The notes under the pieces: model-generated
What the model was told of the DNA's origin: nothing
What the model saw: only the letters and a program-made list of their open reading frames with translations
Database searches by the model: none
Shown here: positions 57,115-59,383 of the stretch, one piece after another
How positions within the stretch are numbered: the first letter of the stretch is position 1
Layout of the letters: each line of letters begins with the position of its first letter
From: Prochlorococcus sp. MIT 1300
GTDB taxonomy: Bacteria; Cyanobacteriota; Cyanobacteriia; PCC-6307; Cyanobiaceae
Direction of reading: 5' to 3'
Assembly (NCBI RefSeq): GCF_034092375.1
Contig: NZ_CP139302.1
Coordinates: 1,364,001-1,428,000 of the forward strand
DNA length: 64,000 nucleotides
Made by a program: the position numbers and the translations under genes

Positions 57115-58098
57115 ATGACAGATCCCTTGAATAAGCCAACTGTTGAGCCGCCTAAGGTTTGGGTGATTGCGGCTTGTTTCAATGAAGAAGCGGCGATCGT
57201 TCGCTTTATTGAACGTGTAGTTGCTTTAAATTGTGTTAGTCGTTTAGTTTTAGTAGACGACGGTTCGTCTGATAATACTGTTAATCAGATTCAACTTTGG
57301 CAGGAGAAATCAGAGCAGCCAGAGGCTTTTGGAAAAATCACCTTGATTGAGTTGACTAGAAATTTTGGGAAAGAGGCTGCAATGCTTGCTGGTTTAGATT
57401 ATGCGCAGGATAATTGCGAGGCAGTGGTAATAATTGACTCTGACTTGCAGCATCCTCCAGAGTTGATTTTTGATATGGTTGAAGAATGGCAAAAGGGTGC
57501 TGAAATTGTTACTGCAGTTAGAGATGATAGAGATAAAGAGTCACCATTTAAAGTCGCTACAGCATCTTGGTTCTATAAAGTATTTAACAGGCTTGTTGAT
57601 TCAATTCAATTAATTGAGGGTGCAGGGGATTACAGGTTGTTGAGTGCCCCAGTGATTAAGGCCCTTATTCAAATGAGAGAGTTTAGTCGTTTCTCTAAGG
57701 GACTAGTTCCTTGGACTGGATATAAAAGTGTTCAGCTTAGTTATATGAGAGAATCTAGGATGGGAGGACATACTTCTTGGAGTCCTTTGAAACTGTGGAG
57801 CTACGCTCTTGATGGCATATTTTCGTTTTCTGATATCCCACTTAAGGTATGGAGTTTGCTTGGAATAACTGTTTCAATGTGTAGTCTATTTTATGCTGGA
57901 CTGATTATTATAAGAACCCTATCTGATGGGCCAGATCAGGGAGCTCCCGGTTATGCTTCTTTAATAGTTGCGATTTTATTTTTAGGTGGGGTTCAGCTCA
58001 TAGGGATAGGTGTTTTAGGAGATTATATAGGCCGTATTTATCTAGATGCAAAGGCTAGACCTCATTATTTTATTAGGTCAATTCATGTTCAAGAATGA
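57115..58098 (+). CDS. GtrB/DPM1-like glycosyltransferase family 2
   Basis: A 327-residue GT2 enzyme of the type that puts a sugar on undecaprenyl or dolichyl phosphate. The catalytic domain has VIAACFNEEAAIVRFIERV, LVLVDDGSSDNTV, ELTRNFGKEAAMLAGLDYA and the DxD VVIIDSDLQHPPELI. The C-terminal part has GAGDYRLLSAPVI and two membrane helices (about 245-265 and 280-305). It ends one base from the facing GtrA-YdjC fusion. It probably makes the lipid-linked sugar for a surface modification; the sugar is unknown. Confidence 0.92.
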   Translation: MTDPLNKPTVEPPKVWVIAACFNEEAAIVRFIERVVALNCVSRLVLVDDGSSDNTVNQIQLWQEKSEQPEAFGKITLIELTRNFGKEAAMLAGLDYAQDNCEAVVIIDSDLQHPPELIFDMVEEWQKGAEIVTAVRDDRDKESPFKVATASWFYKVFNRLVDSIQLIEGAGDYRLLSAPVIKALIQMREFSRFSKGLVPWTGYKSVQLSYMRESRMGGHTSWSPLKLWSYALDGIFSFSDIPLKVWSLLGITVSMCSLFYAGLIIIRTLSDGPDQGAPGYASLIVAILFLGGVQLIGIGVLGDYIGRIYLDAKARPHYFIRSIHVQE

Positions 58099-58099
58099 T

Positions 58100-59383
58100 C
58101 TAGCTTCTATTAAATTCTTTTAGTGATAACCACTCCTTCCTTCTCCATTCAGATGAAAAGAAATCTTGGGAAAGATAGAATCCTTTTGTTTTCAAATCAT
58201 TTTCTTTTCTGTTTAAATTAGTGGATGGGTGAGCCAGCAACAACGGAGCAGTTAGTTGTTTCCCCTGAGAGAAAAACCTGAGTTCTCTCCAGGCTCTACT
58301 TAGAGTCTTATCGGCCATTCTTCCAGTGCAAAGAACTCCGGCGAAGGCAATATTTGTCTCTAACTCTGCTTTTTTTATCTTTGACTTAGCAAGTATCGTA
58401 AGTGCTTGGAGTATTATCCATTTCAACCATCCACCATTGGCAAATATAAACGCTAAGTCTTTTAAGGGAATTCCCTGAGGCCATGGCTCTGATGTTGTGC
58501 GTATCCAATGTATGCCTAACTCATGTGCATTTTGTAGAAGAATATTTAGAACAATTGGTGTCAGATGAATGTGTTGATGACCATCTAATTTTATCTGTTT
58601 CTGATGAGTTAGTTGCTTGAAAGTATTGATTTGAGCTTTAAGTTCCTGGGTTAGCTGAAGTTCTATTGCTTGTCGTTTTTTTGACTGCTTAGGCAATATT
58701 GATAACCACATCAATTTAGCAAAAGATGTATTTAGATAACCTTCTTTATTTATTAAATCTAAGATTTCTTCTTTAGCAGATATTGTTGGACCTTCTGTTA
58801 GGCATATGTGCAGATGGAGCTCAAGCCGAGTGTCATAATTGAATTGTTCAATAGCATCTTTAACCGAAGGTCCATTTACAAGTAAGCTGGCACTATCTAG
58901 GTGCCCAGATTTTGCAAGGGAAAATATTGCTTCATTTGTAGCAGTATTTAGCCCAAGATCGTCAGCATGTATTCTTGGTGAGACATCGCTAATCCTTCTG
59001 CGCCTTTTACTAAAATTTGCGGCTTTATTCCATATTAATGCATTTAAAACTGTTGGGGTTAATACAAGAATTACTTTTGTCATTGGCAAGTCTTGCCAAT
59101 GACTTAGTGCGATTGGGAGCAATGCACTTACCGTCGAATTGATACAAAATTGAAAAATTAACCACCTACGTGCGAATTGTCTCCCAGATGTCTCCTCTTG
59201 ATATGTGTAGATCGCATGACCTATGTAGCTGGTGACAGAAGCAGCTACAAATGCAGTTAGATTACTTGCCCAGAATGGTAGGAAGTGAGTTAGAAACTCT
59301 AGGCAAATTGCATGAGTTGTTGCTGCCCCTAGCCCTACTACTGCATAGCGTCTTAAACGTTTCGAGAGATTGGTGATTTTCAT
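58100..59383 (-). CDS. GtrA-like membrane domain fused to a YdjC/ChbG-type carbohydrate deacetylase domain
   Basis: This 427-residue protein has two parts. Residues 10-123 hold four membrane helices with the GtrA/DPMS layout (RYAVVGLGAATTHAICLEFL; NLTAFVAASVTSYIGHAIYTY; basic KAANFSKRRRR at the end), a proposed carrier of lipid-linked sugars. From about residue 136 a YdjC-like domain follows: metal site Asp in IHADDLGLNTATNEAI, HxH in LELHLHICLTEG (His190, His192), and LDGHQHIHLTP with His269-His273. These are the family's metal ligands. Its tail faces the GtrB-like gene one base away. Confidence 0.85.
   Translation of the reverse strand: MKITNLSKRLRRYAVVGLGAATTHAICLEFLTHFLPFWASNLTAFVAASVTSYIGHAIYTYQEETSGRQFARRWLIFQFCINSTVSALLPIALSHWQDLPMTKVILVLTPTVLNALIWNKAANFSKRRRRISDVSPRIHADDLGLNTATNEAIFSLAKSGHLDSASLLVNGPSVKDAIEQFNYDTRLELHLHICLTEGPTISAKEEILDLINKEGYLNTSFAKLMWLSILPKQSKKRQAIELQLTQELKAQINTFKQLTHQKQIKLDGHQHIHLTPIVLNILLQNAHELGIHWIRTTSEPWPQGIPLKDLAFIFANGGWLKWIILQALTILAKSKIKKAELETNIAFAGVLCTGRMADKTLSRAWRELRFFSQGKQLTAPLLLAHPSTNLNRKENDLKTKGFYLSQDFFSSEWRRKEWLSLKEFNRS

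Follow-up and report, generated by a model that had tools for sequence, protein, structure and literature searches.

A GtrA–YdjC fusion protein and its GtrB-type glycosyltransferase partner in picocyanobacteria: a probable donor half of an extracytoplasmic glycosylation system

A single reading frame in Prochlorococcus sp. MIT 1300 joins a GtrA/DPMS-like membrane domain to a YdjC/ChbG-type deacetylase domain, and it lies tail to tail with a gene for a GtrB-type GT2 glycosyltransferase, the stop codons of the two being one base apart (Table 1). The two proteins probably supply the lipid-linked sugar donor of an extracytoplasmic glycosylation system, in which charging by the GT2 would be followed by cytosolic N-deacetylation, exit by way of the GtrA domain and transfer by a GT-C enzyme. 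The pair was read in a stretch of 64,000 nucleotides, referred to here as the window (contig NZ_CP139302.1, positions 1,364,001 to 1,428,000). The source genome is that of a Cyanobiaceae picocyanobacterium, 1.855 Mb in size and 99.98% complete, and the fusion is its sole YdjC protein. Since the two genes are convergent, they are separately transcribed and do not form one operon, which counts as a doubt about the proposed pathway.

Table 1. Features of the fusion gene and its glycosyltransferase partner, in window coordinates
Feature	Position	Strand	Basis or remark
GtrB/ArnC/PgfS-like polyprenyl-phosphate glycosyltransferase, 327 aa	57115..58098	+	GT2 domain and two C-terminal membrane helices
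His113 of the GT2, directly after the DxDLQ donor motif	57451..57453	+	
GtrA-YdjC fusion ORF	58100-59383	-	427 aa; single open frame
GtrA/DPMS-like membrane domain, residues 1-129	58997..59383	-	PF04138 and AlphaFold2: four helices, predicted N-in/C-in by the positive-inside rule
Short basic linker, residues 130-136, from last membrane helix to deacetylase	58976..58996	-	
YdjC/ChbG-type deacetylase domain, residues 137-424	58112..58975	-	PF04794 (E 4.6e-36) and Foldseek
D141 (general base) and D142 (metal ligand), matching ChbG D10/D11	58958..58963	-	Alignment to 7vi8; 21/21 homologues
H192, metal ligand, matching ChbG H61	58808..58810	-	Alignment to 7vi8; invariant
H269, metal ligand within DGHQHIH, matching ChbG H125	58577..58579	-	Alignment to 7vi8; invariant
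H385 of an invariant HP pair, probable general acid (ChbG H206)	58229..58231	-	Motif, not alignment

The layout of the locus given in a preliminary description, i.e. a four-helix GtrA/DPMS-like domain and a YdjC/ChbG domain in one frame, faced at a distance of one base by a GtrB/DPM1-like enzyme, is confirmed by the open reading frames, by Pfam and by a predicted structure, the domain search and the structure prediction being checks which that description had itself proposed. Both domains exceed their cut-offs in the same protein. The YdjC half matches PF04794 over residues 138-420 (E 4.6e-36; 125.5 bits, cut-off 29.7), spanning profile positions 4-254 of 266. The N-terminal half matches GtrA_DPMS_TM (PF04138) over residues 12-96 (E 3.5e-9; 37.3 bits, cut-off 26.1), and this match is partial, covering positions 1-88 of 117 or about three quarters of the profile. 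An AlphaFold2 model built with 21 family members as input (mean pLDDT 88.6, pTM 0.81) has helices at residues 3-31, 37-59, 70-92 and 100-129, continuing into a ChbG-like domain from residue 137, and the N-terminal half thus combines a GtrA/DPMS profile match with four membrane helices. The best matches among solved structures (Foldseek) are YdjC-type deacetylases, namely CmCBDA (8jqe), ChbG (7vi8) and EF3048 (2i5i). Another GtrA domain of this genome, at 1.021 Mb, is joined to a DPM1-like GT2.

In ChbG the metal is bound by D11, H61 and H125; the base is D10 and the acid H206 (PMC9402603). The corresponding residues of the fusion, D141, D142, H192, H269 and H385, are invariant in all 21 homologues. 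The preliminary description held that every metal ligand is kept, in the motifs HADD, HLH and DGHQHIH; this stands for the ligand set of D142, H192 and H269, but HLH was overstated, as its second His (H192) alone is conserved. The YdjC half is likely to be catalytically competent, judging by a metal site read off the sequence. That it serves picocyanobacterial chitin utilisation, as a ChbG-like deacetylase of chitin fragments, is very improbable. ChbG is among the best fold matches and GH18 chitinases occur in some picocyanobacteria, but the genome of the window is without GH18, strong GH18 matches are present in only 10 of 25 complete fusion genomes, the ChbG equivalog NF002559 is failed (64.8 bits against 227), and the one constant neighbour is GtrB-like, with no chb-type genes seen nearby. 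The chitin-catabolism reading was rejected as unsupported by the distribution of GH18.

The charge of the loops bears on where deacetylation could take place. Across the 21 homologues the N terminus has on average 3.2 lysine plus arginine residues, the loop joining helices 2 and 3 has 4.4 and the segment behind helix 4 has 5.1; the two remaining loops, assigned to the periplasmic side, average 0.4 and 0.5. By the positive-inside rule this pattern corresponds to an N-in/C-in topology, which would put the deacetylase domain in the cytosol, on the same face as synthesis of the GT2 product. Within the membrane domain R73 and N114 are invariant and, matched by motif, are the probable counterparts of GtcA R95 and N132, mutants of which are defective in both glycosylations (PMC7389260).

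The partner enzyme carries a GT2 domain (Pfam, E 8.3e-25) and fails both the PgfS (255 bits, cut-off 500) and the ArnC (146 bits, cut-off 529) equivalogs of NCBIfam. Its closest relative in the PDB is Synechocystis GtrB (sll0501, E 3e-81), with which it is identical at 12 of 12 functional residues checked (D94, D96, R122, R125, K132, A136, Y140, D157, R200, L212, A216 and R290). The DxD motif, the acceptor Arg pair, the catalytic Asp and the juxtamembrane residues of a GtrB-type enzyme are all present. Synechocystis GtrB is specific for glucose, converting UDP-glucose to Und-P-glucose, which is without an acetyl group (PMC4728340), and the main doubt about the proposed pathway is accordingly its sugar, since the nearest characterised relative of the GT2 uses UDP-glucose. 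It differs from the enzyme of the window in this glucose specificity and in having Asp, not His, after DxDLQ.

Lipids other than undecaprenyl phosphate may also carry amino sugars. In the GpgSDF and HexSDF systems a glycosyltransferase, a deacetylase and a flippase act in turn, as proposed here, to yield the amino-sugar lipids GlcN-PG (PMC12713373) and HNHDRG (PMC10128005), although with other protein families, another lipid and separate genes. A glycosylated phospholipid or glycolipid, rather than an Und-P-sugar, could likewise be the substrate of the fusion, and the nearest NCBIfam model of its YdjC half is the hopanoid-linked HpnK (TIGR03473; 104.4 bits, below the cut-off of 232.6). Such a substrate is nonetheless improbable, as the GT2 is GtrB-type with all acceptor-phosphate residues conserved, unlike the GT4 enzyme GpgS and the MGDG-synthase-like HexS, and the presumed carrier is GtrA and not a flippase of the UPF0104/MprF type.

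The residue following the donor motif of the GT2 varies with its genomic context. Residue 113 is His in all 53 fusion-linked enzymes and in all 19 YdjC-linked enzymes from outside the cyanobacteria, and Asp in the glucose-specific GtrB, in 12 of 12 Cyanobiaceae GT2s with GtrA but no YdjC nearby and in 7 of 8 others; the exceptions are four Vampirovibrionia-like YdjC-linked GT2s, with Q or D. In the GT2 tree the GtrA-only cyanobacterial enzymes form the sister group of the fusion-linked ones (96/97), and the YdjC-linked enzymes of proteobacteria fall elsewhere. Because these branches are separate, His113 tracks linkage to YdjC and not simple descent, though an ancestral His with several losses may be an alternative history. 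Residue 113 may govern the choice of sugar, and the His/Asp switch with YdjC linkage offers a testable rule of donor specificity.

An N-acylated donor is argued for by the intact deacetylase, which almost always stands beside a GT2 with this changed donor motif. The acyl group removed could be other than the acetyl of an N-acetylhexosamine, e.g. an N-formyl group, or an N-acetyl group on a diamino or 4-amino sugar, in the manner of ArnD acting on Ara4FN. The second-best NCBIfam model of the GT2 is ArnC, ArnC structures align with it, and the residue after DxDLQ varies between enzyme classes. We consider this reading improbable too, given that no genes for Ara4N synthesis were seen near the pair and that those YdjC enzymes whose activity is known have N-acetylglucosamine-type sugars as substrates.

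The fusion was found in 86 of 400 sampled Cyanobiaceae genomes and is intact in 83 of them, the three other copies (G119, G302 and G246) being damaged or ended by a contig edge. Tallied by hand among these 400 genomes, its carriers belong to at least 22 of the 59 genera sampled, with identities of 38-52%. Synechococcus WH7803 is also a carrier. The join is therefore not a frameshift or an assembly artefact; a frameshift in other strains, which the preliminary description had named as a reason to dismiss the fusion, is absent from the 83 genomes with an open frame. Outside Cyanobiaceae no fusion was seen among the matches listed for 386 genomes from across the phylum, among those listed for 200 relatives of a proteobacterial YdjC genome, or in a scan of named genomes restricted to its peptide patterns. 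In a phage collection the fusion was likewise not found, two weak YdjC matches being the only ones. The fusion is lineage-restricted, and rare outside Cyanobiaceae rather than proven absent there.

The count of genomes sharing fusion and neighbour, also proposed at the outset, shows a constant partnership. An orthologous GT2 accompanies 83 of the 86 fusions, the three damaged or partial copies included; across the 400 genomes, 83 have the fusion with a close GT2, three the fusion only and one (G130) the GT2 only. In all 29 relatives with flanks available the GT2 lies tail to tail opposite the fusion, mostly with overlapping 3' ends, and in 28 of these it is a close orthologue (64-74% identity). 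The remaining relative, G052, which is one of the three fusion-only genomes, has as convergent partner a diverged GT2 of 31% identity (L047:6427-7362), apparently a different PgfS-like enzyme that has taken the place of the usual one.

Two cyanobacterial loci have the GtrA part without the deacetylase. In G130 (L034:4797-6170) the frame stops after the GtrA domain, with the GT2 adjoining and no YdjC remnant detected at the locus; in G183 (L035:3867-5462) GtrA adjoins a more distant GT2 (38%), and neither a nearby YdjC nor a remnant was found at the locus. As both hold GtrA beside a GT2 only, the GtrA domain is retained where YdjC is missing, possibly through loss of the latter. The two genomes belong to two genera that otherwise bear the fusion.

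Separate versions of the system came from a scan of named genomes with peptide patterns from the fusion and no selection on neighbours, in which 28 YdjC loci lay outside the cyanobacteria. At 19 of the 28, YdjC adjoins a GT2 of the partner's family, and 10 of the 19 also have a separate GtrA gene, four of these confirmed directly by Pfam; when the genomes were searched whole with Pfam, most of them proved to have GtrA genes. The proteobacterial YdjC proteins are soluble, with GtrA encoded by a neighbouring gene of its own. At some other non-cyanobacterial loci a PMT_2-type GT-C replaces GtrA, and an EamA-type carrier gene occurs at one YdjC locus. Vampirovibrionia-like genomes have YdjC beside a GT2 in four of five loci read (L165-L168, not L172), and in one of them (L167) the two are joined by a GT-C-like gene and a weak match to GtrA. 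The other cyanobacterial YdjC genes checked had no adjoining GT2. The fusion thus unites parts that are neighbours elsewhere. The strongest, and independent, functional support for the proposed pathway is given by the ten proteobacterial GtrA/GT2/YdjC loci together with the two cyanobacterial lineages that have GtrA and GT2 and no YdjC.

These loci also bear on whether the GtrA part is a mere membrane anchor, holding the deacetylase near a lipid-linked sugar while another protein flips the product. The profile match is partial, as noted, and flipping by GtrA proteins, although proposed generally, is not proven even for the family. An anchor role is still unlikely, because R73 and N114, the probable equivalents of functional GtcA residues, do not vary, GtrA persists beside the GT2 where YdjC is absent, and the soluble proteobacterial YdjC with its separate GtrA implies that the deacetylase needs no such anchor.

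No GT-C gene adjoins the pair within the window, and the genome encodes three PMT_2 proteins. An ArnT-like GT-C at 1.713 Mb was rejected as a dedicated partner; it is unspecific, being present in 46 of 46 genomes tested, with or without the fusion. Orthologues of another candidate, GT-C3 at 1.027 Mb, occur in 23 of 25 genomes with the fusion and in 8 of 20 others. In four genomes (g10) the fusion/GT2 pair is clustered with GT-C3, DUF2079 proteins and an OprB porin, and orthologues of this cluster lie at 1.012-1.031 Mb in the genome of the window. The evidence for GT-C3 as third component is suggestive.

The 1.012-1.031 Mb region itself contains three DUF2079 membrane proteins, two PMT_2 GT-C proteins, the DPM1-like GT2-GtrA fusion and an OprB/SLH porin. 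It is a second, unlinked extracytoplasmic glycosylation region, orthologues of which join the YdjC-fusion/GT2 pair in other genera. In G080 (L180:6331-13154) the two GtrA systems share one locus, where the pair adjoins two GT-C genes and an orthologue of the DPM1-GtrA fusion.

From the domains, catalytic residues, GT2 partnership and separate versions that are observed, we infer the sugar, its acceptor, the order of steps and flipping as follows. The GT2 would load undecaprenyl phosphate at the cytosolic face with an N-acylated amino sugar, most likely an N-acetylhexosamine. The YdjC domain of the fusion would strip the acyl group by means of a metal-activated water, giving Und-P-hexosamine in the cytosol, and the GtrA domain of the same chain would carry or pass this across the membrane. 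A periplasmic GT-C enzyme would then place the now cationic sugar onto an acceptor in the envelope. The preliminary description had suggested that the fusion deacetylates an undecaprenyl-linked sugar, and this part gains support from the separate three-gene versions, the co-occurrence with the GT2, the predicted cytosolic topology and the catalytic residues; its choice of GlcNAc, flipping by GtrA and LPS as acceptor do not share in that support. A more elaborate possibility, which we regard as doubtful, is that of a gated trimming flippase, in which attachment of the deacetylase to the exit path through GtrA would let only the deacetylated, cationic Und-P-sugar be exported.

The chemistry proposed has parallels in systems built from separate proteins. 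In Francisella, a pathway of NaxD and an ArnC-like glycosyltransferase reportedly converts Und-P-GalNAc to Und-P-GalN; as proposed here, a GT2 makes an Und-P-N-acetyl sugar and YdjC-family deacetylation precedes transfer to an envelope lipid, but NaxD is a separate protein whereas the picocyanobacterial deacetylase is fused to GtrA. The ArnC-ArnD-ArnEF-ArnT pathway for L-Ara4N similarly unmasks a lipid-linked amino sugar before flipping; unlike in the fusion, ArnD is a NodB-type deformylase, ArnEF is of the SMR/EamA type and all components are separate. The Lgm system of Bordetella also decorates with an amino sugar by way of an ArnC-like glycosyltransferase, a deacetylase and a GT-C, encoded in lgmA-D as four separate genes and not as a fusion. 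Its product is GlcN on the lipid A phosphate; a deletion phenotype is described (PMC11401268). The lipid A of marine Synechococcus WH8102 and CC9311 is without phosphate and contains galacturonic acid (PMC4515613), which rules out Lgm-type GlcN on phosphate in these strains. The acceptor must differ from that of Lgm where lipid A is of this type, and LPS is not assured as the acceptor. Three-component Gtr systems and GtcA-CsbB-YfhO share with the proposed pathway a GtrB-type glycosyltransferase, a GtrA-type presumed flippase and a GT-C acceptor enzyme (PMC11127046, PMC7389260); they have no deacetylase step, which is here built into the presumed flippase.

As the chemistry is already known from the separate proteins of NaxD, Lgm and the Arn deformylase, the novelty lies in the fusion and not in the logic of the pathway. 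In the literature searched no paper names both GtrA and YdjC, and the fused architecture appears undescribed; nor was a description found there of a positively charged surface sugar in marine picocyanobacteria. The fusion ties a presumed flippase to an enzyme whose action is easily followed by mass spectrometry (-42 Da), which provides a handle on GtrA function. If the proposed pathway is correct, the outer surface of marine picocyanobacteria would carry a sugar with a positive charge. An amino-sugar modification of the envelope is thus predicted for abundant marine phototrophs, in which surface charge would affect phage, grazers and nutrient binding.
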